Positions 19,572 to 51,350 of a DNA stretch of 54,406 nt are shown here, one piece after another. The first letter of the stretch is position 1, and the number at the start of each line of letters is the position of its first letter. The notes beneath the pieces are model-generated. The model saw only the letters and a program-made list of their open reading frames with translations. It was not told the DNA's origin and made no database searches. The translations under genes and the position numbers were made by a program. This stretch comes from a virus, in IMG/VR virus record IMGVR_UViG_3300034072_001783, positions 1-54,406 of that record; one strand, 5' to 3'.

Positions 19572-20270
19572 ATGACAGATTATAATAGAAGTGCTGAAGC
19601 ACAGGAGGTTTTTAAAAGAAAAGGGAAACCAAAAACCCCAATCAAATTTAAACTCACCTTAAACGAGGAACAAAAAATTGCAAAAGATCAAATACTCCAT
19701 AATACCGTAACTATATTAAAAGGTAAAGCAGGATCAGGTAAATCTTTATTAGCAGCAAATATAGCCCTAGATTTACTCTTCACAAGAGAAATTGAAAAAG
19801 TAATCATCACTCGACCCACAGTAGTAGCAGGACAAGATATAGGATATCTTCCAGGGGGTATAGATGAAAAATTAGCCCCTTTTACAGCTCCAGTATACGA
19901 AAATATGCATAGATTATATGATAAGGAAAAAATCGAAAAACTTATCACAGAGGGTAAAATAGAAATAGTACCTGTATCTTTTATGAGAGGGAGGAACTTC
20001 ACAGATTGTTTAGTAGTTGTTGATGAATCACAGAATCTAACAGATGTACAGACTGAGCTAATCTTAACCCGTATATGCAAGGGATCTAAAGTAATATTTT
20101 GTGGAGATAGTGCCCAAATTGACCTTAAAAACAAGAAAGAATCAGGATTTGATTTTATGGCTAAGCACATGGCTGACATTCCAGGAATTAAAGTTATAAC
20201 TTTAGAAAAAAATCATAGACACGAAATTGTTGAACCTATATTAGAAGTTTATAAGTCATTCAGAAGTTAA
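19572..20270 (+). CDS. phoH: PhoH-like P-loop ATPase
   Basis: A 232-residue cytoplasmic ATPase of the PhoH family. Walker A is GKAGSGKS (51-58), the conserved RPTVVAGQDIGYLPGG block follows at 81-96, and Walker B is LVVVDESQN (147-155), with GDSAQIDL further on. The family resembles superfamily 1 helicase cores and may act on RNA; its role in phages is unresolved, although it is a common phage auxiliary gene. It is insulated by the capsid terminator and its own late-type motif. Confidence 0.93.
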   Translation: MTDYNRSAEAQEVFKRKGKPKTPIKFKLTLNEEQKIAKDQILHNTVTILKGKAGSGKSLLAANIALDLLFTREIEKVIITRPTVVAGQDIGYLPGGIDEKLAPFTAPVYENMHRLYDKEKIEKLITEGKIEIVPVSFMRGRNFTDCLVVVDESQNLTDVQTELILTRICKGSKVIFCGDSAQIDLKNKKESGFDFMAKHMADIPGIKVITLEKNHRHEIVEPILEVYKSFRS

Positions 20271-20273
20271 CAA

Positions 20274-20281
20274 TATTTATA
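20274..20281 (+). promoter_or_regulatory. Late-promoter-like motif TATTTATA
   Basis: AATATTTATAACAAAATATT lies 13 bases before the ATG at 20295. Confidence 0.5.
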
Positions 20282-20294
20282 ACAAAATATTGAT

Positions 20295-20741
20295 ATGGCT
20301 TCTACATTAACTGCTACCTCTTTTAATATAAAAATAACAGAAGAACACATTATTCGTAATAGTGTTATTAAAAATGAAGTAACTCGTACAATTACTGGAG
20401 TTAAAAACATTGATCACCGAATTGTAACTTGCCCAAACACTACATCTATTGATTTATTTAATTTAGATGGAATTAACCCTGGAGCAGGAACATTCCCTTC
20501 AGGTAGTCTTCAATATGTTAGGATTACTAACTTAGATGATACCTATAGTGTAGCAGTAACAATTAGTGGGTCACAAGGAAATTTTACTCAAGAATTAACC
20601 CCCACAAATTCAGTATTTATAGTAAGTTCAAATGTTACTTCTAGTAACTTTGATGGTAGTTTTGGTGATGATATAGAGGCTGTAAAAATTTACGCTATAA
20701 GTAGTAGTGTAGATATTGAATATACACTTGTAAACGCATAA
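20295..20741 (+). CDS. Hypothetical beta-rich protein, possible virion decoration protein
   Basis: A 148-residue protein with alternating Thr/Ser/Ile/Val patterns typical of a beta-sandwich (IVTCPNTTSIDLFNL, LQYVRITNLDDTYSVAVTI, SVFIVSSNVTSS). It has no cysteine pair, signal peptide or catalytic motif. Its place between the PhoH-like gene and the neck genes, and its own late-type motif, suggest a virion protein such as a head decoration or neck accessory. I do not recognise a family. Confidence 0.6.
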   Translation: MASTLTATSFNIKITEEHIIRNSVIKNEVTRTITGVKNIDHRIVTCPNTTSIDLFNLDGINPGAGTFPSGSLQYVRITNLDDTYSVAVTISGSQGNFTQELTPTNSVFIVSSNVTSSNFDGSFGDDIEAVKIYAISSSVDIEYTLVNA

Positions 20742-20745
20742 TACT

Positions 20746-21900
20746 ATGAATGTACCTATTTGGCCCGGCTCAAGTTCTTTCCAACCTGGAGAAACTCCAT
20801 TTGGATTTTACGATAATGATCTTCAATTCCAGCAAGACATAGATAAATTTGCTATATTTGCTTCAAGAAGGATGGGATATCCTATTGTAGAAATAGAATT
20901 ACAAGATTTAAACTTTTATGCTGCTTTTGAAGAGGCTGTTACAACATATGGTAATGAACTTTTTGCTTATCAAGCAGCACAAAATTTCTTATCCTTTCAA
21001 GGTGCTCCACAAACCATAGCCTCAGCTAACAATTCTTTGCCTCAACCCAATCTTGCAACTATAATCAGATTAGCAGATCAATATGGAGTAGAAGCAGGTG
21101 TTGGAGGAAATGTCACATGGTATTCAGGATCTATTGATCTTATTCAAGGAGTACAAAATTATAATTTAGAGAATTTTGCAGCTCAGGAAGGAGTAGCCCC
21201 TGGAGATCTAGAAATTAAAAGAGTTTTTTACGAAGCACCTCCCGCAATTGTAAGATATTTTGATCCATATGCTGGTACAGGTACGGGGATGATGCAAATG
21301 TTAGATAGTTTTGGTTTTGGTGGATATTCACCTGCCATCAACTTTTTAATGATGCCTATAAATTATGATTTGCAAAAAATTCAAGCTATTGAGTTCAACG
21401 ACCAAATCCGTAGATCACAATATTCATTTGAGCTTATACATAACAATCTAAAAATATTCCCCATCCCAGGCCCTGCTATGGATAAACTTTGGGTCCAATA
21501 TATTAAAAAATCAGATAGAAATAATCCTTATGTAGATACAGGTGGAGTAGATGTTATTACAAACATTTCTCAAGTACCGTATACTAATCCTATATATTCT
21601 CAAATTAATTCTATAGGTAGACAATGGATTTTTGAATATGCATTAGCCATTGCTAAAGAAATATTAGGATATGTACGAGGTAAATATGGAAATGAAATTC
21701 CTGATCCAAACGAGAAATTAACTTTAAATGCCCCTGATCTACTATCTTCAGCAAAAGATACTAAAGATGCTCTTATAGAAAGATTGAGAGCGTATTTTGA
21801 TGAAACCTCTAGAAAAAAACTTTTAGAAAACAGAGCATCAGAATCTGAATATTTGCAAAAAGAGTTAAATTACGTACCATATACAATTTATATAGGATAA
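20746..21900 (+). CDS. Neck protein (gp13-like)
   Basis: A 384-residue protein. The N-terminal part (FYDNDLQFQQDIDKFAIFAS, then RRMGYPIVEIELQD) and a C-terminal region with GRQWIFEYALAIAKEILGYVRGKYG followed by a Leu-rich helix match what I know of gp13-type neck proteins of marine T4-like phages. These complete the head and connect it to the tail. It is longer than T4 gp13 (309 residues). The order gp13, gp14, gp15 fits the two following genes, which are almost contiguous. The call rests mainly on pattern and synteny. Confidence 0.7.
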   Translation: MNVPIWPGSSSFQPGETPFGFYDNDLQFQQDIDKFAIFASRRMGYPIVEIELQDLNFYAAFEEAVTTYGNELFAYQAAQNFLSFQGAPQTIASANNSLPQPNLATIIRLADQYGVEAGVGGNVTWYSGSIDLIQGVQNYNLENFAAQEGVAPGDLEIKRVFYEAPPAIVRYFDPYAGTGTGMMQMLDSFGFGGYSPAINFLMMPINYDLQKIQAIEFNDQIRRSQYSFELIHNNLKIFPIPGPAMDKLWVQYIKKSDRNNPYVDTGGVDVITNISQVPYTNPIYSQINSIGRQWIFEYALAIAKEILGYVRGKYGNEIPDPNEKLTLNAPDLLSSAKDTKDALIERLRAYFDETSRKKLLENRASESEYLQKELNYVPYTIYIG

Positions 21901-25815: not shown

Positions 25816-27357
25816 ATGGGATTAGTATTAAAAAATGTAAATATAACTGGTGGTAAATTGAGTAGTACTATACCACAACCCACTGATGAACCTTGGATAA
25901 GAAATCCAGATTGGTTACCACTTGATGATGTACAACCAGGAGATAATAAGTTTAGTGGTTTATGGGCGGTGTATGAAGATATACCAAGTACACATTGGTT
26001 CTATTATCAAATAGGCGGAGGTAATGTAAGTGAAGTTGATTATGGTGATGGTACAACACAAACAGCTAGCAATCTTGTATTCTACAGCAAATTTTATGAC
26101 TATTCCTCATTACCAGGTCCAGTATTAGTTGATGAAGATTGGGGTAATTATAAGATGGTAGTTATTAACATACAATTTGCTACTACAACTACAGGTATCT
26201 TATGTGATAGACAGAGTACGTTTGGTTATGCAAGTAAACCTACTGGATGGTTAGATGTAGTAATGGATTGTTCTACTATGTCTACACTCAATATATCATC
26301 ACAACGACTTTCAATATTTATAGAGCGTTTAAGAATATTAAATAATAATTTAACAAACCCAAATAGTATATTTCAACGTTTACTGAGATTACGGATATTT
26401 GATTGGGATATTGATGGTGTTAATGTAGGTAATTTTCAATCAACATTCCAAACTTCAAGAGGTGATTTTAGGACAAGTAATAACGAACCTATAAGCTTAA
26501 TAAACAATACCACCACACAGTTCGCATCCACATTCGCTTCATCACATAATCTAAAAAAGATAGGTACAATATCCTCCACCTCAGCGGATAGTTTGTCATC
26601 TACATTAGCTAGTTGTGTTAATTTAGAGGAAGTAGATAAAGTAATAGTACCTAATGTGACAAACTCATCTAGTACCTTTAACAATTGCCCTAAGCTTAAA
26701 TCAATAAACGAAATTGATATATCGGCTACACAAAATACAACTGCCCTGTTTCAGGCATGCAATAGCCTCGAGAAGATAGGGGAGACAAATACTTTAAATA
26801 TTAATTCTGCAACTACTGCTGCTAATATGTTTTTAGATGCTAGAACACTAAAAAAAATTAGTATACTAGGTTCTAATTTAGGAAATGTTACTTCTATGTT
26901 TAGTAGGTGTTATGAAATTGAAGAAATTAATTTTATTAATCAACCAACAAATATAACAGCGATGACTTCTATGTTTAGTGAGTGTTTCTCATTAAAAAAA
27001 ATAGATTTAAGTAGTTCTATTATAACTGGATTAGCAAACTCAACATTTGTTAACTGCATATTAATTGAAGAAATATCATTAGGTGACTGTTCTGGTATTA
27101 CAAACACTAGTTCAATGTTCGCAGGTTGTACTATGCTTAGACGCTTAAGAGTACCTAATATAAAAATTAGTTTTATAATAACAAGTACTGCTATAGAAGC
27201 CCCAGAAATGGTAACAGTATTTAATGATTTAGCTGATTTGATTACATTAGGATTACCAGCAGCAAATATCAATATTTCTAATACACCTGCATCATCCAAC
27301 TTAACACCTGCTGAACGAGACATAGCACTAAATAAAGGTTGGACAATAACAGGATAA
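25816..27357 (+). CDS. BspA-type leucine-rich-repeat adhesin, candidate receptor-binding protein
   Basis: A 513-residue protein. It starts with a short beta segment (VLKNVNITGGKLSST) shared with the LamG-like protein downstream, then a domain with VDYGDGTTQT that resembles a PKD-type strand. From about residue 175 to 460 it is built of roughly ten 22-25 residue repeats of the BspA/DUF285 type, with cores such as TSMFSRCYEIEEINF, TSMFSECFSLKKIDLS and SSMFAGCTMLRRLRVP. It ends with LTPAERDIALNKGWTITG, a common ending of such phage proteins. LRR arrays offer a variable binding surface, so a receptor-binding role is likely but inferred. Confidence 0.8.
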   Translation: MGLVLKNVNITGGKLSSTIPQPTDEPWIRNPDWLPLDDVQPGDNKFSGLWAVYEDIPSTHWFYYQIGGGNVSEVDYGDGTTQTASNLVFYSKFYDYSSLPGPVLVDEDWGNYKMVVINIQFATTTTGILCDRQSTFGYASKPTGWLDVVMDCSTMSTLNISSQRLSIFIERLRILNNNLTNPNSIFQRLLRLRIFDWDIDGVNVGNFQSTFQTSRGDFRTSNNEPISLINNTTTQFASTFASSHNLKKIGTISSTSADSLSSTLASCVNLEEVDKVIVPNVTNSSSTFNNCPKLKSINEIDISATQNTTALFQACNSLEKIGETNTLNINSATTAANMFLDARTLKKISILGSNLGNVTSMFSRCYEIEEINFINQPTNITAMTSMFSECFSLKKIDLSSSIITGLANSTFVNCILIEEISLGDCSGITNTSSMFAGCTMLRRLRVPNIKISFIITSTAIEAPEMVTVFNDLADLITLGLPAANINISNTPASSNLTPAERDIALNKGWTITG

Positions 27358-35268: not shown

Positions 35269-35290
35269 ATTGACACTAAAAAATAATACA

Positions 35291-35890
35291 ATGATAAATA
35301 CTTCAAACAATATTCCCTTAATAGGAATTTATAAAATAACATCCCCTACCGGAAAAATTTATATAGGACAAAGTAAAAATATTCTCCAAAGATTTAAGTT
35401 CTATTCCTTTTATAATTGTAAAAATCAAACCAAACTTTATAATTCTTTTAAAAAACATAAAGTTGAAAATCATTTTTTTGAAATTATAGAAGAATGCTCT
35501 GTAAAACATCTAAATGAAAGAGAAGAATATTGGATTAATCATCTAAATTCTATAAAAAAGGGACTTAACATTCAAAATGGGGGTAATGCTTCTCCTCGTA
35601 ATATTGAAACTAAGAAAAAAATTTCAAGATCCTTAACAGGTAAAACCAAATCCCCCTCTCATAGATCTAATATTTCATCTTCCCGAAAAGGTATGAGGTT
35701 TACTGAACAACATAAACATAATATGAGTAAAAGTAGATTTAGATATTCTATAATATGTTTAGAAAATGGCAAAATCTATAAAAGTGCAAATCAAGCATCA
35801 AAAGATTTAAACATATATCCCTCTTCAATTATAAAGGTGTGTGAAGGAAAATATAAACAAACTAAAGGATATACCTTTAAATTTATATAA
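35291..35890 (+). CDS. GIY-YIG homing endonuclease (second copy)
   Basis: A 199-residue endonuclease if started at the ATG 35291; an upstream TTG at 35270 adds seven residues that match nothing. The GIY-YIG domain shows GIYKITSPTGKIYIGQS, then a catalytic-type Arg nearby (LQRF) and the acidic LNEREEYWINHLNS helix. A NUMOD3-like basic part (RSLTGKTKSPSHRSNISS, RKGMRFTEQHKHNMSKS) and a C-terminal IENR1-like module (ICLENGKIYKSANQASKDLN) follow. It is flanked upstream by a terminator and a late-type motif and interrupts the chaperone pair. It differs from the copy at 3122, so the two are not recent duplicates. Confidence 0.9.
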   Translation: MINTSNNIPLIGIYKITSPTGKIYIGQSKNILQRFKFYSFYNCKNQTKLYNSFKKHKVENHFFEIIEECSVKHLNEREEYWINHLNSIKKGLNIQNGGNASPRNIETKKKISRSLTGKTKSPSHRSNISSSRKGMRFTEQHKHNMSKSRFRYSIICLENGKIYKSANQASKDLNIYPSSIIKVCEGKYKQTKGYTFKFI

Positions 35891-41239: not shown

Positions 41240-44200
41240 ATGGCAAATATAGTAGGTGAAGAAATTCCAAAATACACCACAGATCAAATTAGAGTTAGAC
41301 AAAATCTTCATGGTAAGGGATCTCCCTTAAGTGGGTTAAGAAATGCAAGTGAAATATCCCTTTTAAATTCTAATACTTCTTGGGTAAAATTAGCATCAGG
41401 AGTTTCAGTAACTCAAGATAAATTAAAATCACTTAATTTAAATTCATCTGAATATGTAGGAATGGGATTAGCTAAATCTCATGTGCTCTTTGGAGGAGTC
41501 TCTACTCTTTCTGGAGCTTCTACTAACCAATGGCTTTACCCTAAACAATTCAATACTGGCCTTTCGGGTTATTCTCATAGCACAGATTTTGGAATAGTTC
41601 CAATGCCCGGTATAATTGATGTATCTATTAAAACCCTTAATAGGGGCTCCATTAAAAAAGCCTCAGTCAAACTCAAAGCATATAGTAGAGAACAGTTTGA
41701 AATCCTTGATGTTTTATATCTTAGACTAGGATTTACAGTATTGTTAGAATGGGGGAATGTTAATTATTTAGATAATGATGGAGTAAATTATAGAACTGTA
41801 GGAGGTACCCTTATTGAAGATAGCAAGCGTTTTTTTAATCCTGCTTTTACTGAAAATAAATCATATCTAGACCTTTTAGGCCCTATAGAATATTATCGAA
41901 AAAAATATCAAGGTAATTACGATGGATTCTTAGGAAAAATATCCAATTTTAGTTGGAGTTTTAATGAAGATGGGTCATACGATATAAGTTTAGAAATTAT
42001 AAGTTTAGGAGATGTTATAGAATCTCTTAAGTCTAATGTTTCAATAGATTCAAAGTTAAATACCTATATTGAACAGTTTAGGACTGATGAGAACTCAATT
42101 CCTGAAGGTGAGCCTTCTGAGAATTCTTTTTTAACTCCTTATGAAAATAATAACATAATAACTTCTATGTTATGGTTATGGAAATTTCTTAACAGAGATA
42201 ATAGTGGAGAAACAAATAATGGAGTTTCAATTACCACAGGAAATGGAGTTAGAGGTTTTATAGGAAGAATTTTAGACTTAACTAATACCGAATTACAAGT
42301 ATATAAAATATTATTAGTTGAAAAAGGAAATAATAGTAATATTATTTTTGAATTCCCTGAGCGCCCCTACATTAGTGATGATGAAATACAAAAGAATGTA
42401 GACCAAATAAGAGCCTATTTAATTAATAAAAATCTACAAGACGCCTTAAATGATTCATACACTATCATAGATTATGTATTTAGAGTAGCAGATGAAGAAG
42501 AAATTGATATAGTTTATGAGAGATATACTGCCCTTGAAGTAGATACTCTTTTTACTTCAACTAATCTTCCCCCAATCCCTGTTATTAGGTTAAACACTCC
42601 TGAAAAGGATCATTATATAAGATTTGAATATCTCCTTCAATATATTAAAGAAAAAGTTTTACCTAATGTTAAAACTAATGGTGCTTCAAATCCCCCAATA
42701 TTTAACATAGAATATGGAAGATATTCTAATAAAATGTATTCTCTTCCAAATCAAATTTCTTTAGATCCTCGAGTATGTTTGGTAAGAAATGATAAATTCT
42801 TCAAATCTGGATCTCCTGATATACCCGCTAAGGTCCTCTCTGAATTAATTCCTTTTAGGGCAGTAGATTATAATTCAAATGCATCTCCTAATACTGCATA
42901 TCCAATGAATATATATTTAAACTTTAACTTTGTAGTTGATAGTTTGAATTCAAATACTGATGAAAGAGGAGATGTAGGATTATTTGGGTTCCTTTCATCT
43001 ATATGTGATGGGCTAAATAAAGCCCTAGGTGGAATAAACAACCTTGAACCCATAATTGATGAATCATCCAACACATTAAAAATTATTGATTCAACTCCAA
43101 TCCCAGGACTGACTAAAGATAAAGGAAATTATACTTTAGAAGTTTTTGGATATAATGAAAAACAATCAAATTTTATTCGTAAAATAGATCTTCAAACTGC
43201 TATTACTCCTGAATATGCTACAATGGTAACTGTAGGAGCTACAGCAGGAGGATATGTTAAAGGAGTTGAAGCTACTGCTTTTTCTAATTGGAATAAAGGG
43301 TTAATAGATAGGTTTAAAACTGAGTTTACTACTGCAAATACTAAAGAAGAAGAAGGAGAAGTTGTAGATGAAGCTGAAAAAAATTACGTAGAACAATTTT
43401 TAAGTAAATTTATAAACTGTTATGGATTTGCAGCCCCAAATGGTTGGAGCAATGGAAGAGTCCAAATAAAGTTTGTTGGTGATATAATAGGAAGTAATCT
43501 TTCAGTTGGAACAGAGTATTTTAAATATCTTCAAAATAAAAATAAAGCAGGTGGGGCAATAGGTTTTATCCCATTTAAATTTAGTTTTGTTATGGATGGG
43601 TTAGCTGGATTTAAAATCTATAATAAACTACATATTTCAACTAGGTTTCTTCCTAGAAACTATGGAGATACTTTAGACTTTATAATAACAGGTATAACTC
43701 ACGATTTAAAAGATAATAATTGGGAAACCTCAATTCAAACTCAAGTAATCCCTAAAACAACAGAAATTAGTGATCTAGAGATAAGCGAAGAATACATTAA
43801 ACAAACTATTGCAGATGTGAATAGCAGTGGTGGTGTTGGTGCTCAAGTTTCAAGTTGTAGGGAACTCCCATCTTCACCTAGAAGTGTTCCCAAAAACAAA
43901 ATTAATTCCACTTCTACTGAAATAGATGCTATTAATTATATAATTGATTATCTTGAAGGAGGTTATTATCACCCAACCCAAGCCTTTGACCCTATCACTA
44001 AAATAATCTCCCCAGGATTTAGTGTTATGGCTAATAGTGGAGAAACTATATATGGTTTAGACAGAGTAGCTGGAGGATGGATGAATTACCCTGAGGGGAG
44101 AAAATTTTGGGATACAATTGATAAAATTTCAGGAAATGGTGTTTTTGGGGGTGTAAATGGACGCAATTCTACAAAAAGAACAAAAGATTTTGGGTATGCT

Positions 44201-44578
44201 CCATTACAACCAAAGTCTTGGGGTTATAATGCCTTTCCTGGTAAGAAAGGTATCCCCCCATCCCCACAACTTCGCATAGATGCTTCAAAAATGATTAAAG
44301 AAAGATATGATGCATATTTTAATTCATATTTTGGAACCCACCCTTCTGGGGCTCTAATTAAAAGTGATGGGAGAGGTATATTTATGTTCTATCGAGCAGT
44401 ATGGAATGGAAGTGGGTTTTTCCAAAAATATGCTAATAATGTTAAATCTAAATATGATAGTGGAGTAACAAATATTGAAGATTTAATATGTGAAGATTTA
44501 ACATTTAGATATAACACTAAATCTTCTTCATTTAAAAAAGGTGTTCTCTATTTAAGAGATGCTATGGTAGGATTTTAA
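41240..44578 (+). CDS. Baseplate hub protein with C-terminal lysozyme-like domain
   Basis: A 1112-residue protein, far longer than T4 gp27 (391) or gp5 (575). The first part has hub features, including FGIVPMPGIIDVSIKTLNRG and REQFEILDVLYLRLGFTVLL followed by EWGN; residues about 620-880 form another hub-like beta domain (ITPEYATMVTVGATAGGYVK). From about 895 a muramidase-like domain begins: YLEGGYYHPTQAF with E906 as possible catalytic Glu, SGETIYGLDRVAGGWMNYPE (from 933), a loop with Lys/Asn and further helices to the end. It would puncture the cell envelope and cut peptidoglycan, combining roles split between gp27 and gp5 in T4. The lysozyme family (GH108-like) is a tentative call. Confidence 0.75.
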   Translation: MANIVGEEIPKYTTDQIRVRQNLHGKGSPLSGLRNASEISLLNSNTSWVKLASGVSVTQDKLKSLNLNSSEYVGMGLAKSHVLFGGVSTLSGASTNQWLYPKQFNTGLSGYSHSTDFGIVPMPGIIDVSIKTLNRGSIKKASVKLKAYSREQFEILDVLYLRLGFTVLLEWGNVNYLDNDGVNYRTVGGTLIEDSKRFFNPAFTENKSYLDLLGPIEYYRKKYQGNYDGFLGKISNFSWSFNEDGSYDISLEIISLGDVIESLKSNVSIDSKLNTYIEQFRTDENSIPEGEPSENSFLTPYENNNIITSMLWLWKFLNRDNSGETNNGVSITTGNGVRGFIGRILDLTNTELQVYKILLVEKGNNSNIIFEFPERPYISDDEIQKNVDQIRAYLINKNLQDALNDSYTIIDYVFRVADEEEIDIVYERYTALEVDTLFTSTNLPPIPVIRLNTPEKDHYIRFEYLLQYIKEKVLPNVKTNGASNPPIFNIEYGRYSNKMYSLPNQISLDPRVCLVRNDKFFKSGSPDIPAKVLSELIPFRAVDYNSNASPNTAYPMNIYLNFNFVVDSLNSNTDERGDVGLFGFLSSICDGLNKALGGINNLEPIIDESSNTLKIIDSTPIPGLTKDKGNYTLEVFGYNEKQSNFIRKIDLQTAITPEYATMVTVGATAGGYVKGVEATAFSNWNKGLIDRFKTEFTTANTKEEEGEVVDEAEKNYVEQFLSKFINCYGFAAPNGWSNGRVQIKFVGDIIGSNLSVGTEYFKYLQNKNKAGGAIGFIPFKFSFVMDGLAGFKIYNKLHISTRFLPRNYGDTLDFIITGITHDLKDNNWETSIQTQVIPKTTEISDLEISEEYIKQTIADVNSSGGVGAQVSSCRELPSSPRSVPKNKINSTSTEIDAINYIIDYLEGGYYHPTQAFDPITKIISPGFSVMANSGETIYGLDRVAGGWMNYPEGRKFWDTIDKISGNGVFGGVNGRNSTKRTKDFGYAPLQPKSWGYNAFPGKKGIPPSPQLRIDASKMIKERYDAYFNSYFGTHPSGALIKSDGRGIFMFYRAVWNGSGFFQKYANNVKSKYDSGVTNIEDLICEDLTFRYNTKSSSFKKGVLYLRDAMVGF

Positions 44579-44593
44579 ACTAGAATTTAAAAA

Positions 44594-45196
44594 ATGTATT
44601 ACCCAAAATCTCAAATAAAAACCAATTTATATACTAGTGGAGGTGAATATATTCTTTCTACTACCCAAGAAGAATACATAGGATTCTTACACCATCTATC
44701 TAATGGTAAGTTTTATACTGGGAAATCCCCAAACGATCCCCCTACTTTATTACTTCAACCAATAACAACCAACCTTATTATTTATAATGGAGAACAAGAA
44801 AATTTCCTTCCTAATGAAATTCAACCACTACCCTTAGTAGATTCTAAATTTTTCAATATCCCCAACACACGCAAACTCCCCTCCCCCATCCAACCCCTCC
44901 CAACCCAACAAGATAAAGATCTAGGAGTATTCCCAAGATATTTCTGTAAGAAAAATAATGAAAACATCTATATTGAAATAGATAAAGAACAATTTACTAA
45001 ACTACAAAGTAAAGATAAAACAATTGCATGGGACTTATACACCCCAAAACAAGTACTATGGCAAATAAAAGGAGATAAAACTCAAACCTACAATGCCAAT
45101 AAAAACAATATTTCTTTAATAGAACAAAGAGATAAATGGTATGGTTTTACACAATACTTTAAAGATAGATTTTTAAAATATTATTTGGAATCTTAA
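44594..45196 (+). CDS. Conserved phage protein, unknown function
   Basis: A 200-residue protein starting MYYPKSQIKTNLYTSGGEYI, then EEYIGFLHHLSNGKFYTGKS. I recognise this opening from other Bacteroidota and marine phages, always close to baseplate or tail genes, but know no function. A Pro-rich middle (NTRKLPSPIQPLPTQQ) links to a C-terminal part with IYIEIDKEQFTKLQSK and a helical end. No enzyme motif is seen. It closes the structural block and precedes a possible host-type promoter for the polymerase gene. Confidence 0.65.
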   Translation: MYYPKSQIKTNLYTSGGEYILSTTQEEYIGFLHHLSNGKFYTGKSPNDPPTLLLQPITTNLIIYNGEQENFLPNEIQPLPLVDSKFFNIPNTRKLPSPIQPLPTQQDKDLGVFPRYFCKKNNENIYIEIDKEQFTKLQSKDKTIAWDLYTPKQVLWQIKGDKTQTYNANKNNISLIEQRDKWYGFTQYFKDRFLKYYLES

Positions 45197-45220: not shown

Positions 45221-46468
45221 ATGTTTTGGATTATAGAAACGGAATCTCAATTAGATATATTTAATCGTCAAGGGTTTAAAGAAGCCTTCGTTGAGGTTAT
45301 CCCATTTTCTTCAAACATACACCCTACCCAAAACCCCGTATCATTAGTTTACGTTAAACCACTCATAAATGCGAGTAAAGGGTATATGTTGTGCATTCAA
45401 CACAATGACACGTTTCCACTAGAATATAGCAAAATACAACAAGTACTAGCAAATATTGAAACAATATATGTTAGAGATAAGAAAGAATTCTTACATTATT
45501 TTTTTCATAAATCTTGCCACACTACACCACCCCCTCCCCCTCCGTATATACATGAATATACAAAAACACATGAGTTTTACTATAGGAAATACCCAAACCA
45601 AGATAACATCAATTGTATTATCCCTATTTCAAAACACTATGAATATTGTGAGGCGTTATTTAAAAGTATAACTCCTCAACCCCTATCTAAATTTAGAGAT
45701 AAAGCAGACCTAGTGTTTCACCTTATAGAAAAATCCGGATTAAAATTAAACCAAGAAATATACAATAAATATTTTACCTTCCCTTCTCAGGATTATATTT
45801 ATACTCAATATAATTTAAACACAACAACAATGCGCCCTTCAAACAAATTTGGAGGTATAAACTTTGCGGCATTGAATAAAGATAATGGAGAAAGGGAAGC
45901 ATTCATACCCCACAACGATTTCTTTTTGGACTTGGACATTAGTGCATACCATCCTACTTTATTGGGTAAGTTGGTGGGTTTTGAATTTCCTGAAGGAGAT
46001 ATCCATCAAGCATTTGCTGAAATGTACGGGGTGGATTACAAAAAGGCAAAAGAATTAACATTTAAACAGTTATATGGTGGAGTGTTTAAGCAGTATGAGC
46101 ATCTAGAGTTTTTTAAGAAAGTTAAGAAATATACGGATAAGCTTTGGGATGAGTTTAATAACCAAGGATATATAGAGTGTCCTATATCAAAACATAGATT
46201 TGAGAAGGATAAGCTGGAAAATATGAACCCACAAAAACTTTTAAATTACTTACTTCAAAACTTGGAGACCTCAAATAATGTTATTATTTTATGGGAAATA
46301 TTAAAACTTTTGCAAGGAAAGAATACTAAACTAGTATTATATGTGTATGATTCTTTTTTATTAGACGTAGATAAAACCGAAAAAGACACAGTAAAACAAA
46401 TATTAAATATATTTAAAAACCACAGATTAAACATTAAATTTAAAAAAGGGAACACCTATAATCTTTAA
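45221..46468 (+). CDS. Compact family A DNA polymerase with degenerate exonuclease-like N-terminus
   Basis: A 415-residue protein with the family A polymerase signatures in order. The region before motif A is TTTMRPSNKFGGINFAALNK (201-220), followed by REAFIP, comparable to the TGRLSS...NLQNIP...R..F stretch of Pol I. Motif A is LDLDISAYHP (D239), then GDIHQAFAEMYG (259-270). Motif B is KELTFKQLYGG (K277, Y285, G286) and motif C is VYDSFLLDV (D377), where Pol I has HDE. Residues 1-95 look like a worn 3'-5' exonuclease domain without the DxE catalytic pair. A hexaproline linker (103-108) joins it to a very short thumb. It is much shorter than typical Pol I polymerases. The two catalytic Asps are kept, so activity is plausible. 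Confidence 0.75.
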   Translation: MFWIIETESQLDIFNRQGFKEAFVEVIPFSSNIHPTQNPVSLVYVKPLINASKGYMLCIQHNDTFPLEYSKIQQVLANIETIYVRDKKEFLHYFFHKSCHTTPPPPPPYIHEYTKTHEFYYRKYPNQDNINCIIPISKHYEYCEALFKSITPQPLSKFRDKADLVFHLIEKSGLKLNQEIYNKYFTFPSQDYIYTQYNLNTTTMRPSNKFGGINFAALNKDNGEREAFIPHNDFFLDLDISAYHPTLLGKLVGFEFPEGDIHQAFAEMYGVDYKKAKELTFKQLYGGVFKQYEHLEFFKKVKKYTDKLWDEFNNQGYIECPISKHRFEKDKLENMNPQKLLNYLLQNLETSNNVIILWEILKLLQGKNTKLVLYVYDSFLLDVDKTEKDTVKQILNIFKNHRLNIKFKKGNTYNL

Positions 46469-46477
46469 AAACCAGTT

Positions 46478-46939
46478 ATGAACCAAATTTTAGACCAAAC
46501 TGAATATATGTATTATCAGTATGACTTTGATACACCTGATAACATAAATTCAATGAATAATAGATTATTTTGCACTTTTACTCAGTTAGAGGACATGGAT
46601 ACACTTATTTCCGAAGTTTCTTCTAAATATGATATATTGTACAATAAAATTTTTGCCCTACAAGTTAAAAGTAACAATGAATATGTAATTACATACAATG
46701 TTGATCAAGGTAACATTTCTTCAATCCCTGAAAATACCATATTGGTGCATAGAAAAAAAGAGACAAACACACTCTATACTATAAATGCTTTAAATACTTT
46801 AATTAAAAGTTTAAATGGTGGAGTTGTAGATACAAAATTCCCTATTTATTGGGATCACTATAAAAATTGCATTCTATTAACTCAACATAACGAGTTAAAA
46901 CAGTTAAATACCAAAATATATAAAGTGATAAATCTTTAA
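46478..46939 (+). CDS. Hypothetical protein between polymerase and SSB genes
   Basis: A 153-residue alpha/beta protein that I do not recognise. It has an N-terminal Asp/Tyr/Asn-rich region, a middle strand-rich part (KIFALQVKSNNEYVITYNVD) and a C-terminal segment LYTINALNTLIKSLNGGVVD followed by YWDHYKNCILL and a final strand. No metal-binding or P-loop motif is present. It starts nine bases after the polymerase gene, and a host-type promoter follows before the SSB gene. An accessory replication role is possible by position only. Confidence 0.6.
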   Translation: MNQILDQTEYMYYQYDFDTPDNINSMNNRLFCTFTQLEDMDTLISEVSSKYDILYNKIFALQVKSNNEYVITYNVDQGNISSIPENTILVHRKKETNTLYTINALNTLIKSLNGGVVDTKFPIYWDHYKNCILLTQHNELKQLNTKIYKVINL

Positions 46940-47005: not shown

Positions 47006-47857
47006 ATGAATCTAGACTTAATCAAAAGTAAACTTGAGGCTTTACAACCTCAAAGTAAAAAGAAAGAGTATGAAAAAGTAGATTACTCTAAGGTTTATTG
47101 GAAACCTAAAAGTGAAGGTAAATATCAAATTCGTATTGTTCCTTCTAAATTTAACCCTGATTGGCCCTTCCAAGAAGTCCAACTTCATTATGGTTTTTCA
47201 AAATTTCCACTTTATGCACTATCTAATTGGGGTGAAAAAGATCCTATTGTAGAATTTGCTAAGGAACTTCGTAAAACTAATGAATCTAAAAATTGGAAAC
47301 TTGCAAAGCAAATTGATCCTAAAATGAGATATTTTGCTCAAGTTTTAGTTAGAGGTGAAGAAGATATGGGAGTTCGTTTGTGGGAATTTGGAAAAAACAT
47401 CTACCAACAGTTTCTAAACATTGCTGAGGATGAGGACTATGGGGATTATACTAACGTAGCTAATGGGTTTGATTTTACAGTTAATGTTGAGAAAGGAGAC
47501 ATGAATGGAAGAGATGTTTTAAAAATTGTATCCGTTTCTCCAAAACGTAAAGAATCCCCATTGAGTGAGAACGCCTCAGTGGTTGAAGGATGGTTAGAGA
47601 ACCAAAACAATATTTTGGATCTTCAAAAACCCTTTAAAAAAGATTTTGATGCTTTGAAACAAACACTCCAAAACTTCCTTAACCCTGAAGAAGAAGAAGA
47701 TGAAATTATCTCTGAGAATGCATCTGATTTTGATTCAGACCTAAAAGAAGAACCTAAGTCAAACTACTCTTTATCTACTAAAAAAGATACTAAAACATCC
47801 GTAGACAAGTTTGATGAGATGTTTGAGGATGATGAAGATGATGATTTACCTTTCTAA
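47006..47857 (+). CDS. Single-stranded DNA-binding protein (gp32-like)
   Basis: A 283-residue ssDNA-binding protein. Basic and aromatic residues in the first 190 (KVYWKPKSEGKYQIRIVPSK, QVLVRGEEDMGVRLWEFGKN, GFDFTVNVEKGDMNGRDVLK) fit the OB-fold core of gp32. Residues about 225-283 form an acidic tail ending EDDEDDDLPF. There is no cysteine in the whole protein, so the zinc site of T4 gp32 is absent. The DDDLPF end resembles the tip of bacterial SSB (DDDIPF) more than the T4 gp32 end. The acidic tail probably recruits UvsX, helicase or host proteins. A host-type promoter lies just upstream. Confidence 0.85.
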   Translation: MNLDLIKSKLEALQPQSKKKEYEKVDYSKVYWKPKSEGKYQIRIVPSKFNPDWPFQEVQLHYGFSKFPLYALSNWGEKDPIVEFAKELRKTNESKNWKLAKQIDPKMRYFAQVLVRGEEDMGVRLWEFGKNIYQQFLNIAEDEDYGDYTNVANGFDFTVNVEKGDMNGRDVLKIVSVSPKRKESPLSENASVVEGWLENQNNILDLQKPFKKDFDALKQTLQNFLNPEEEEDEIISENASDFDSDLKEEPKSNYSLSTKKDTKTSVDKFDEMFEDDEDDDLPF

Positions 47858-47876: not shown

Positions 47877-48953
47877 ATGCCAAGACCTAAAAAATCATTA
47901 GCAGAGGCCGTATCTAAAGAACTCAAATCGGGGTTTAGTATTGATAGTTTTAAAAATAAAAAAGGCCTCAACACAAACGTTAAATTTAAAGAACAAGAGT
48001 GGATACCTCTTTCAGATGCATTCTCCGAAGTTCTTTCTATTCCTGGAATTCCTTTAGGTCATATCGTTCTATTAAGGGGCCACTCAGACACAGGTAAAAC
48101 AACAGCATTGCTTGAAGCCGCTGTTTCCGCTCAAAAAAGAGGTATTCTTCCCGTTTTTATCATTACAGAAATGAAATGGTCCTGGGAGCATGCCAAAATG
48201 ATGGGGTTAGAAGTTGAAGAAGTTGTAGACGAAGAAACAGGTGAGATTCTAGATTATAAAGGTAATTTCTTATATGTTGATAGAGAAACTATCCATACTA
48301 TTGAGGATGTTGCTGCCTTTATTTTAGATATGCTAGATGAACAGAAAAAAGGTAATCTCCCAATGGACTTAATGTTTTTGTGGGACTCAATAGGATCAGT
48401 ACCATGTGAAATGTCCGTTAAGTCGAATAAAAACAATAATGAATGGAATGCAGGGGCAATGTCAACCCAATTTGGAAATAACGTAAATCAGCGTATTACC
48501 TTGTCTCGTAAGGAATCCTCACCATATACTAATTCTTTAATTTGTATCAATAAAGTATGGGCAGCTAAGCCAACAGTTCCTATGGGACAACCAAAATTGA
48601 TGAATAAAGGAGGATTTGCTATGTGGTTTGATGCAACCTTTGTTATAACCTTTGGAAATGTTGCGGATGCTGGTACTTCTAAAATTAAAGCTATTAAAGA
48701 TAGTAAACAAGTTGAATTTGCTAAACGTACTAACATTCAAATTGATAAAAACCACATTAACGGAGTTCAAACACGAGGAAGAATTATTATGACACCTCAT
48801 GGGTTTATTGAAGATTCTGAAAAGGCTTTAAAGCACTACAAAGACACTCATGTTGAGGAATGGAAAGCAATTTTAGGAGGAGAAAATTTCAACATCATTG
48901 AAGAAGAAACCTCAGAAGTGAATGTTGAGATGTTCACAAACGAACCCGAATAA
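47877..48953 (+). CDS. uvsX: RecA-like recombinase (UvsX)
   Basis: A 358-residue strand-exchange ATPase. Walker A is GHSDTGKTT (68-76), the segment PVFIITEMKWSWEHAKMMG holds the catalytic-Glu region (E98), and Walker B is MDLMFLWDSIGS (163-174). DNA-binding loop material follows (AMSTQFGNNVNQRITLSRKE). Length and domain order fit T4 UvsX (391 residues) slightly shortened at the C-terminus, which is acidic here. It lies directly after SSB and before the exonuclease and helicase genes, a recombination-dependent replication cluster. Confidence 0.94.
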   Translation: MPRPKKSLAEAVSKELKSGFSIDSFKNKKGLNTNVKFKEQEWIPLSDAFSEVLSIPGIPLGHIVLLRGHSDTGKTTALLEAAVSAQKRGILPVFIITEMKWSWEHAKMMGLEVEEVVDEETGEILDYKGNFLYVDRETIHTIEDVAAFILDMLDEQKKGNLPMDLMFLWDSIGSVPCEMSVKSNKNNNEWNAGAMSTQFGNNVNQRITLSRKESSPYTNSLICINKVWAAKPTVPMGQPKLMNKGGFAMWFDATFVITFGNVADAGTSKIKAIKDSKQVEFAKRTNIQIDKNHINGVQTRGRIIMTPHGFIEDSEKALKHYKDTHVEEWKAILGGENFNIIEEETSEVNVEMFTNEPE

Positions 48954-48956
48954 AAA

Positions 48957-49982
48957 ATGGACAACAAAGATTTATTAAAGCTTTTGAATAACATTCAAGA
49001 GCAAGGAGACGATACTCCTCAAGAAAGACGAATATTACTTATAGATGCCCTTAACTTATTCTTTAGAAATTTTACTATTATAGGTTCTATAAATGAAGAA
49101 GGAGCACATATAGGTGGGTTAGGAGGATTTCTAAGATCGTTAGGAGCTATGATTAGACAAACTGATCCTACTGAAGTTTATATTGTGTGGGATGGTGTAG
49201 GTTCTTCTAATAATAGAAAAAATATTATCCCTGAATATAAATCTGAGAGAAATATCTCAAGGGTCACTAATTGGGAGGTATTTGATTCACATGAAGATGA
49301 GGATGATTCTAAGGTTGATCAACTAGTTAGAATCATCCAATACCTTAAAACCCTCCCAGTTAGAACTCTATCAATAGATAAAGTAGAAGCTGATGACATA
49401 ATTGCTTATCTTAGTACTACTCTCCTTAAAGAAGAAGAAGAAGGGAGAATATTTATTGTTTCTAGTGATAAAGATTATCTCCAACTTGTAAATGAGAAGG
49501 TTATAGTTTATTCTCCAATAGTAAAACAATATTTTACTACACATAAAGTTGAAGAAAAATTTGGAATACCACCACACAATTTCTTACTTTATAAGGTTTT
49601 AATGGGAGATAACTCTGATAAAATCCCTGGAATAAAGGGATTAGGCCCTAAAAAACTATACAAACTATTCCCTGAATTGCAGAATAGTAAATTATCTTTA
49701 GATGATCTAATTAAAATAAGTGAATCTAAATTAGGGCAGCATATAGTTTATGCTAGATTATTAAGTGACTTAAATGCGCTTAAAAATAGACATAGAGTAA
49801 TGGATCTAAGCAACCCTATGATAGATGAAAAAGATAAGAAATACATAGATGATTATGTTGCTAATTTTAAACCTCAATATCACCCACAACATTTTCTTAA
49901 AATGTATGAGCAAGATAGGTTGGGAAATTTAATTAGAAATGTTAATTTATGGTTAAAAGAACGTTTTGAAAATTTAAAATAA
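48957..49982 (+). CDS. 5'-3' exonuclease / RNase H (FEN-like)
   Basis: A 341-residue flap nuclease-type enzyme, likely to remove RNA primers and flaps as T4 Rnh does. Metal ligands are visible in RRILLIDALNLFFRNF (D30), VYIVWDG (D79), the VEADDIIAY helix (E144, D146, D147), SSDKDY (D171, D173) and GDNSDKIPG (D218, D221), the last followed by a GIKGLGPKKLYKLF helix-hairpin-helix. The first 22 residues are an N-terminal extension. It begins four bases after UvsX. T4 Rnh has 305 residues, so length agrees. Confidence 0.93.
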   Translation: MDNKDLLKLLNNIQEQGDDTPQERRILLIDALNLFFRNFTIIGSINEEGAHIGGLGGFLRSLGAMIRQTDPTEVYIVWDGVGSSNNRKNIIPEYKSERNISRVTNWEVFDSHEDEDDSKVDQLVRIIQYLKTLPVRTLSIDKVEADDIIAYLSTTLLKEEEEGRIFIVSSDKDYLQLVNEKVIVYSPIVKQYFTTHKVEEKFGIPPHNFLLYKVLMGDNSDKIPGIKGLGPKKLYKLFPELQNSKLSLDDLIKISESKLGQHIVYARLLSDLNALKNRHRVMDLSNPMIDEKDKKYIDDYVANFKPQYHPQHFLKMYEQDRLGNLIRNVNLWLKERFENLK

Positions 49983-49985
49983 GTT

Positions 49986-51350
49986 ATGACATTACAAAGT
50001 ATTGACCAATATGGACCACAATTCCAAATAAAAGTTATTTCATCACTTCTTACTCATAAAGATTTTCTTGTAAATATACATGATATTCTTGATGAGAATG
50101 ATTTTGGAAGTGATGCAAATAAATGGATCATTAAAAATATCCTAAAATATTACTCTAAATACCATACTACTCCTAGTATGGATATTCTAAAGGTAGAATT
50201 GAAAAAAACATCAAATGAGGTATTACAAATCGCTATTAAAGAACAATTAAGAGCAGCCTACCAAGCCTCAGAAGAAGATTTGGAATATGTTAAAGAAGAA
50301 TTTTCTACTTTCTGTAAAAACCAACAATTAAAAAAAGCCCTTCTCAAGTCTGTTGATTTGCTTCAAGCAGGTGACTATGATTCCATTAAATTAATGGTTG
50401 AAGGCGCTTTAAAAGCAGGTCAAGATAAGAACATAGGACACGAGTATAATAAAGATGTTGAATCAAGATACCGTGAAGATAATCGAGTTGTTATACCTAC
50501 ACCTTGGCCTCAAATAAATGAACTTCTACAAGGTGGATTAGGAAATGGTGATTTTGGGCTAATATTTGGTAATCCTGGAGGAGGAAAATCTTGGTCACTA
50601 GTAGCACTAGGGGGTTTTGCTGTTAAACTAGGGTACAATGTTGTTCATTATACTCTGGAGTTAGGAGAAGACTATGTTGGAAGAAGATATGACGCTTTTT
50701 TTACACACATCCCCGTAAATAAAATACTTGAAAACCGAGATAAAGTAGAAAACGCCTTAGAAACAATAGAAGGTGAACTCATCATTAAAGAATTCCCAAC
50801 AGGTAGAGCAACTATTACAACAATTGAAGCTCATATTCAAAAACTTAAATCTTTAGGAATTGTACCTGATTTGATTATTATTGACTATGTTGACCTTTTA
50901 AAATCAAAAAGAAATTCTACTGATCGTAAGTATGAAATCGATGATATTTATACTAGCACTAAAGGTCTAGCTCGTGAACTTAATATTCCTGTTTGGAGTG
51001 TATCACAAGTTAACAGAGCAGGATCAAAGGATGATATAATTGAGGGTGATAAGGCAGCAGGATCCTATGACAAAATGATGATTACGGATGTTGCAATCTC
51101 ACTCTCCAGGAAGAAAGAAGATAAAGTAAATAATACAGGAAGATTCCATATAATGAAGAATCGCTATGGTATGGATGGGGTTACCTATCAAATTAAAGCG
51201 GATACTTCAACGGGGCATTTTGAAATTACCCAAGAGTATGATGAAGATTCTCAACCTTCCCCCTCTCCCTCTACTTCACCCAGCTCACTTAATCTAGACA
51301 AATTTGATAAAGAACATCTATCTAAGAAATTTTTTGAATTAAACACATGA
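49986..51350 (+). CDS. Replicative DNA helicase (DnaB/gp41-like)
   Basis: A 454-residue hexameric helicase. The N-terminal helical domain (about 1-150) is followed by the RecA-type motor: Walker A FGNPGGGKS (194-202), Walker B LIIIDYVDLL (296-305), the conserved VWSVSQVNRAGSK segment and FHIMKNRYGMDG with the likely arginine finger. Residues 415-435 are a Ser/Pro-rich linker (SQPSPSPSTSPSS) before a short C-terminal helix that may contact the primase or SSB. No primase is recognisable in this window. The stop overlaps the NrdB start (ATGA). Confidence 0.93.
   Translation: MTLQSIDQYGPQFQIKVISSLLTHKDFLVNIHDILDENDFGSDANKWIIKNILKYYSKYHTTPSMDILKVELKKTSNEVLQIAIKEQLRAAYQASEEDLEYVKEEFSTFCKNQQLKKALLKSVDLLQAGDYDSIKLMVEGALKAGQDKNIGHEYNKDVESRYREDNRVVIPTPWPQINELLQGGLGNGDFGLIFGNPGGGKSWSLVALGGFAVKLGYNVVHYTLELGEDYVGRRYDAFFTHIPVNKILENRDKVENALETIEGELIIKEFPTGRATITTIEAHIQKLKSLGIVPDLIIIDYVDLLKSKRNSTDRKYEIDDIYTSTKGLARELNIPVWSVSQVNRAGSKDDIIEGDKAAGSYDKMMITDVAISLSRKKEDKVNNTGRFHIMKNRYGMDGVTYQIKADTSTGHFEITQEYDEDSQPSPSPSTSPSSLNLDKFDKEHLSKKFFELNT

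Follow-up and report, generated by a model that had tools for sequence, protein, structure and literature searches.

The window, by which we mean the whole stretch of 54,406 nucleotides analysed here, is a 54-kb fragment of a T4-like aquatic virus taken from an IMG/VR record, with Gp23, Gp20, a T4-type terminase and the sheath as markers. It contains an open reading frame that starts with ATG and runs over 415 codons without an internal stop, and that lies in a one-strand gene order kept among relatives: a large structural protein, a 200-aa protein, a compact DNA polymerase, a 153-aa protein, a single-strand DNA-binding protein (SSB), UvsX, a 5'-3' exonuclease and a helicase (Table 1). The initial annotation had placed the polymerase next to the baseplate genes, which is right for the upstream side but gives only half of the picture, as the downstream side is made up of the 153-aa protein and the replication and recombination genes. 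Of the two upstream proteins, the structural one, which owes its name to its position and to the initial annotation, has no Pfam or PHROG match, and the 200-aa protein is likewise without a family match in Pfam and PHROG. Elsewhere in the window, an ORF between tail genes (35270-35890, plus strand) resembles by eye a GIY-YIG homing endonuclease, and a plus-strand gene among the structural genes (25816-27357) matches DUF285 at 2.8e-9 and possibly encodes a surface-binding repeat protein.

Table 1 Features of the compact polymerase locus, given in window positions
Feature	Position	Strand	Basis
Large structural protein, baseplate hub position	41240..44578	+	synteny
200-aa protein upstream, conserved in place	44594..45196	+	synteny
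Compact family A DNA polymerase (415 aa), divPolA1 member	45221..46468	+	ORF, Pfam, PHROG, model, published homologues
Degenerate 3'-5' exonuclease-like domain, approximately residues 1-110 (approximate boundary)	45221..45550	+	model, PDB match, missing acids
TxRPSN motif, residues 203-208, counterpart of Pol I TGRLSS	45827..45844	+	conservation, alignment
Motif A, D239 (metal) to H244 (Klenow Glu710 position)	45935..45952	+	conservation, alignment
Motif B, Y273, K277, F281, Y285, G286	46037..46078	+	conservation, alignment
PxKxxNYxxQxxExxxN motif, residues 337-353	46229..46279	+	conservation
Motif C, Y374-V-Y376-D377-S378-F379 in place of VHDE	46340..46357	+	conservation
153-aa protein, possible polymerase partner	46478..46939	+	adjacency in nearly all relatives
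gp32-like single-strand DNA-binding protein	47006..47857	+	PF08804, 3.5e-16
UvsX/RecA-like recombinase	47877..48953	+	family match
5'-3' exonuclease (FEN / T4 RNase H type)	48957..49982	+	PF02739, 9.1e-32
DnaB/gp41-type replicative helicase	49986..51350	+	PHROG 19, 4.8e-80

Investigating the family assignment of the 415-aa product, we found that Pfam PF00476 (DNA_pol_A) matches it at 2.8e-5 with 23.7 bits, under the curated cut-off of 34.3, which is cleared by the homologue from Flavobacterium phage immuto (43.9 bits, neighbours included in the frame), and that PHROG 17, "DNA polymerase", matches it at 8.7e-8. The AlphaFold2 model, for which an alignment of 60 rows served as input, reached a pLDDT of 94.3 and a pTM of 0.91, and in the PDB it resembles Pol I-type enzymes most closely (Foldseek E 8.6e-17), with the Bst large fragment matched at Z 26.3 over 388 residues and 4.0 A, spanning model residues 1-415. 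At the sequence level, a single-sequence PDB search returned weak matches only (best E 0.27), a PDB profile search gave no match at E 0.001, and the profile-profile comparison with the long PolA of immuto, with four near-identical rows on the immuto side, gave none either. As these profile comparisons were matchless, the residue equivalences were drawn from the MAFFT/HMM alignment with six phage PolAs (P60, S-TIP28, Jester, Staphylococcus phage P68, a gut phage and immuto gp199), from motif spacing and from the structural match as a whole; they are thus equivalences by sequence alignment and spacing, not by superposed coordinates. Model and alignment together give the window protein a palm-fingers fold of the Pol I type in which motifs A, B and C are recognisable. 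This agrees with the initial annotation, which had claimed a compact family A polymerase with motifs A (D239), B (K277...YG) and C (D377) and had named structure prediction and alignment to family A polymerases as the way to check it. The gene product is confirmed at the level of the predicted structure as a compact family A DNA polymerase, for which polymerase activity is predicted.

Relatives were collected from IMG/VR by scans with the window protein (35 loci and, in a further scan, the best 80 of at least 571), with the copy of immuto (the best 80 of 312 loci) and with that of Microcystis phage Mel-JY01 (the best 80 of 109 loci). They form three clades, named A (with the window), B (with immuto) and C (with Mel-JY01), plus one 484-kb uncultured phage, for whose protein one scan for relatives found none. 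Mean identity between the clades is 27-36%, and the window protein shares 51-59% identity with most clade A representatives and about 36% with the copy of immuto. When compared with the annotated phage collection, the Mel-JY01 copy matched only four immuto records, Mel-JY01 and the 484-kb phage, and the further matches of the window protein, seen among the best 20 of 118 records, were other PolAs or unannotated places with E values of at least 5e-5. In Mel-JY01 itself the compact polymerase (L039, 14632-15858) is annotated as hypothetical, and a 346-aa protein annotated as "DNA polymerase I" (20027-21067) sits in the slot of the 5'-3' exonuclease. The conservation set was derived from 272 profile matches, 268 of them without X, and comprises 217 rows including the window, each reaching from profile position 40 or earlier to 400 or later with a score above 100, after identical rows had been removed. 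Frameshifted copies (L012, L027) were left out, because the scan was limited to plus-strand open frames of at least 300 codons, and L072, L080 and L102 (containing N) as well as L075 (length not a multiple of three) were excluded before 64 representatives were chosen. Omega ranged from 0.071 to 0.164 in eight pairs of relatives, indicating purifying selection, and was 0.076 between the window and its nearest full-length relative (84% identity), a pair in which synonymous sites are near saturation.

Within this family the metal-binding aspartates, which by alignment are D239 and D377 in the window protein, are invariant in all 217 sequences, together with K277, Y285, G286 and Q346, and F281 is kept in 216; in the TxRPSN motif T203, R205, P206 and N208 are found in 217/217. 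Around these residues the nucleotide pocket differs from the six reference phage PolAs at three places, two of which we take to be the positions of Klenow Glu710 and Arg754. The former is His244 in all 217 members versus Glu in 6/6 references, the latter Tyr273 in 215 of the 217 versus Arg in 6/6, and motif C reads Y-D-[S/A] throughout the family (Y376 and D377 invariant) versus H-D-x in 6/6, while the counterparts of Klenow Phe762 and Tyr766 are retained. Judged from the sequence, a pocket altered in this way (Glu710 to His, Arg754 to Tyr, HDE to YD[S/A]) could serve a different substrate. According to PMC13228545, Glu710 of Klenow is the steric gate against ribonucleotides, and its uniform exchange for His might point to an RNA-making enzyme, producing primers or transcripts. 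We consider this quite unlikely: the family retains the residues equivalent to Phe762 and Tyr766, DNA polymerases head the list of structure matches, and ribonucleotide discrimination may persist given that His is bulky. Moreover, a DnaG-type primase was present in 8 of 13 long records, namely in all eight tested records above 150 kb, the five without it being 85-124 kb in length, so that the compact polymerase would not be needed for primer making, and its candidacy as a primase was lowered on this ground.

The N-terminal domain looks like a 3'-5' exonuclease lacking its catalytic acids, as had been noticed initially. Across residues 1-134 of the 217 relatives, position 63 (always Asp or Glu) is the single universally acidic column, and the position of the exonuclease motif II aspartate falls on F90 in the sequence alignment, superposed coordinates not being the basis of this placement. 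H61, the acidic residue 63 and K88 occur in 217/217 sequences and H34 in 215/217, and these conserved residues of the dead exonuclease domain may represent a rebuilt binding site rather than decay. The stretch up to R205 covers 205 residues versus 337-462 in the six phage PolAs, and the shortening of the enzyme is located before the TxRPSN motif. What had been described as a shortened thumb is therefore retained here as a short exonuclease-plus-thumb half, the count applying to both domains together. A hexaproline linker, also pointed out initially, is indeed present in the window but turns out to be a local quirk, since a PPPP run occurs in only 2 of the 217 sequences, the window and its near relative L002. 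Replacement of the motif C His and Glu and loss of the exonuclease acids would be expected of a Pol I relative with a structural role and no catalysis, or of a decaying remnant, the "reduced remnant" of the initial annotation. That view is not supported: both metal aspartates, K277, Y285, G286 and Q346 are present in 217/217, the catalytic residues as a whole are unchanged in 216-217 of the 217 sequences, and the eight pairs have omega values of 0.07-0.16, which argues against a decaying remnant and makes this explanation highly improbable.

The gene order downstream of the polymerase recurs across the clades. The SSB gene lies downstream on the same strand in 78/78 (A), 49/49 (B) and 64/66 (C) loci with at least 2.5 kb of downstream sequence, UvsX in 58/58 (A) and 47/49 (C) loci with at least 4 kb, the 5'-3' exonuclease in 48/48 (A) and 40/41 (C) loci with at least 5 kb and the helicase in 10/10 (A) and 32/34 (C) loci with at least 6.5 kb. 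That the polymerase is conserved alongside SSB, recombinase, 5' nuclease and helicase speaks for a general role, and it makes a translesion or mutagenic function, the copying of damaged or modified DNA, improbable, although such an enzyme would agree with the lack of proofreading, with the changed nucleotide pocket and with the 7-deazaguanine modification genes of immuto, which are known from the annotation of immuto only.

Directly after the polymerase follows the gene of the 153-aa protein, found within 1.5 kb in 237 of the 238 loci with at least 0.7 kb downstream (99/100 in clade A, 67/67 in B and 71/71 in C); the exception, L085, has other DNA in these 0.7 kb. Approached from the other side, the best 80 of 587 loci fetched by the 153-aa protein carry the polymerase upstream in 79 cases, the eightieth starting at a contig end, and the matched ends of both proteins are at most about 60 bases apart in 78 of these 79, often with a 4-base overlap. 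The highly conserved core of the small protein is the HRKKxxNTLYTINALN region, and the protein matched no known family. Its predicted model (pLDDT 80.5) matched no PDB fold below E 0.2, the best Z of 7.2 over 61 residues being of a common level, and matched one uncharacterised phage protein in a viral structure library. In the phage collection, polymerase and 153-aa protein co-occur in 6 of 50,697 records, the SSB being present in 64 records and UvsX in 13. This co-occurrence is not specific, as the 200-aa neighbour is almost equally restricted, being found in five of the same six records and nowhere else. The adjacency counts from IMG/VR carry more weight, yet all of them come from one operon, and given the much the same restricted distribution of the 200-aa neighbour they support a partnership without proving it. 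We thus infer that the 153-aa protein is a possible partner of the compact polymerase.

The initial annotation had further considered that the compact enzyme stands in for gp43 or is the replicative enzyme split from its proofreading part, and had raised the question of whether the genome encodes a family B polymerase (PolB) elsewhere. Since the window ends 7.9 kb downstream of the compact polymerase, the fact that PolB is not seen in it is uninformative, and the answer came from the relatives. Among 25 clade A records, window included, PolB was located on the same strand 17.0-32.4 kb downstream in 10/10 records that extend 23.6 kb or more downstream, and the 15 records without it, again including the window, all have 17.6 kb or less; G011 and G012 were omitted from this check because their contigs end within the polymerase. 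Several of the clade A PolB genes are split into two frames, and in record G018 (L138, 58577-59275) one TGA lies inside the PolB frame, which may reflect a sequencing error, inactivation or recoding. PolB open frames of 865-897 aa were found in the records of four relatives. In clade C, PolB was present in 5/5 long records and also in Mel-JY01. Clade B showed PolB in 0/7 records and a PolA open frame of 778-796 aa in 6/7, the seventh being a 114-kb record; immuto itself carries such a long PolA besides the compact polymerase, with a DTE exonuclease motif that looks intact by eye. The compact polymerase is therefore constant while the main polymerase switches family, from PolB in clades A and C to a long PolA in B. 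Since a full-size polymerase also occurs in relatives from each of the three clades, the compact enzyme is not a replacement of gp43 in these relatives, the suggestion of a split replicase is not supported, and the replacement reading is very probably wrong for the virus of the window too.

The same findings bear on the opposite division of tasks, with the compact polymerase as main replicase and the full-size polymerase as accessory enzyme. The compact gene resides in the conserved replication operon and the regular polymerase is encoded elsewhere and belongs to a family that varies between clades, a contrast also remarked upon by the divPolA1 authors in the text of PMC11348598. Nevertheless, we regard this assignment as unlikely, because the compact enzyme lacks an intact exonuclease and has a shortened exonuclease and thumb half, and because a full-size polymerase was found in every clade A record with at least 23.6 kb downstream and in the long clade C records (PolB) as well as in 6/7 of clade B (long PolA).

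A repair or accessory enzyme would be the best-fitting remaining option. With moderate confidence we propose that the compact protein is the extra (divPolA1) polymerase of T4-like phages, predicted to be active, of low processivity and non-proofreading, and devoted to short-gap filling and 3'-end extension. Such an accessory role is suggested by the Pol I fold, the catalytic residues, purifying selection, the lack of an intact exonuclease, the fixed operon and the second polymerase of the relatives. On SSB-coated DNA, the compact polymerase would close short gaps and lengthen 3' ends as lagging strands mature and as recombination-dependent replication proceeds, either by following the neighbouring 5'-3' exonuclease on the lagging strand or by extending recombination intermediates arising from UvsX, with bulk synthesis left to the full-size polymerase. 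The compact polymerase and the neighbouring exonuclease would in this way share between them the work that a single protein, Pol I, performs in bacteria. Against this proposal, the synteny of a shared operon does not prove a joint step, and since T4 fills gaps with gp43, a second gap-filler is not obviously needed. The altered pocket, which could serve another substrate, and the fact that no second polymerase is seen in the window, a fragment, also count against it. More tentatively, and rather doubtful at present, the compact polymerase and the 153-aa protein might be the two obligate subunits of one polymerase whose nucleotide pocket has been rebuilt (His, Tyr, YD[S/A]), an enzyme dedicated to recombination-dependent or lagging-strand synthesis and retained as the main replicase swaps between families A and B.

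Considering known systems, the closest counterpart is divPolA1, defined in 14 phages including immuto in a paper entitled "DNA polymerase swapping in Caudoviricetes bacteriophages" (Virol J 2024, 21:200; PMC11348598). In its text, divPolA1 is characterised by conserved palm residues, a truncated thumb and an exonuclease inactivated by replacement of its aspartates, and it is described as accompanying a regular polymerase (family A, B or C), with replication genes downstream (PMC11348598). On its sequence, the window protein falls within divPolA1, a kind of polymerase thus already published in 2024, and it shares 35.8% identity over 99% (E 3e-74) with divPolA1 of the immuto phages (MW353175-MW353177). 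It likewise has the palm aspartates (217/217), has lost the exonuclease acids, shows a shortened N-terminal half and is followed by SSB, UvsX, exonuclease and helicase, and the second, regular polymerase is present in its relatives (10/10 clade A records with at least 23.6 kb downstream). The differences are that the window belongs to another lineage than immuto and that far more relatives were collected here than the 14 phages of PMC11348598. The text of that paper mentions neither the exchange of Glu710 for His nor the 153-aa protein, both of which may be contained in its figures 4 and 5 (neighbourhoods and motif alignments). Compared with this text, and within the open-licence literature searched, the breadth of the family, the invariant active-site signature and the small protein directly following appear to be new, a modest but testable addition.

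Large fragments of bacterial Pol I (Bst, Klenow, Taq) resemble the compact polymerase over the whole fold, with Z 24.7-26.3 among the best 50 matches listed, but the compact enzyme is approximately 165 residues shorter than the 580-residue Bst fragment, and its family carries His for Glu710, Tyr for Arg754 and YD[S/A] for HDE. Bst and Taq, likewise, are not known to have a working 3'-5' exonuclease. The six other phage PolAs align with it in motifs A, B and C, yet they keep the Glu of motif A, the Arg of motif B and the His-Asp of motif C and are 583-777 aa long. A minimal second polymerase beside a family B replicase is also described for T4-related phages, namely the group 2.2 jumbo phages, where, in contrast, it is a minimal Pol III alpha split over two genes (PMC7824862). 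Rhodothermus phage RM378, a T4-like phage as well, has its polymerase and exonuclease parts in separate genes, but by eye its polymerase part resembles family B; the two genes (L388, 29587-31155, and L387, 21996-22937) look as if one family B enzyme had been divided between them. When RM378 was searched with profiles for the 153-aa protein and for the compact polymerase, nothing matched. Its candidacy as a split family A polymerase was rejected, given the family B-like polymerase gene and a Pol I-annotated gene that by eye is 5'-3' exonuclease-like.

T4 gp43 shares the T4-like context, and PolBs of about its size (865-897 aa in four records) occur among the relatives of the window, but gp43 belongs to family B and the compact polymerase to family A, and a gp43-type enzyme is not replaced by it in these relatives. 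T4 replication is the textbook one-polymerase system, whereas many aquatic relatives of T4 retain a small second polymerase within the core operon as their main polymerase changes family, a pattern which suggests a division of labour absent from T4. The invariant active-site signature and the fixed neighbour gene offer concrete and cheap tests of the role that this second enzyme plays.
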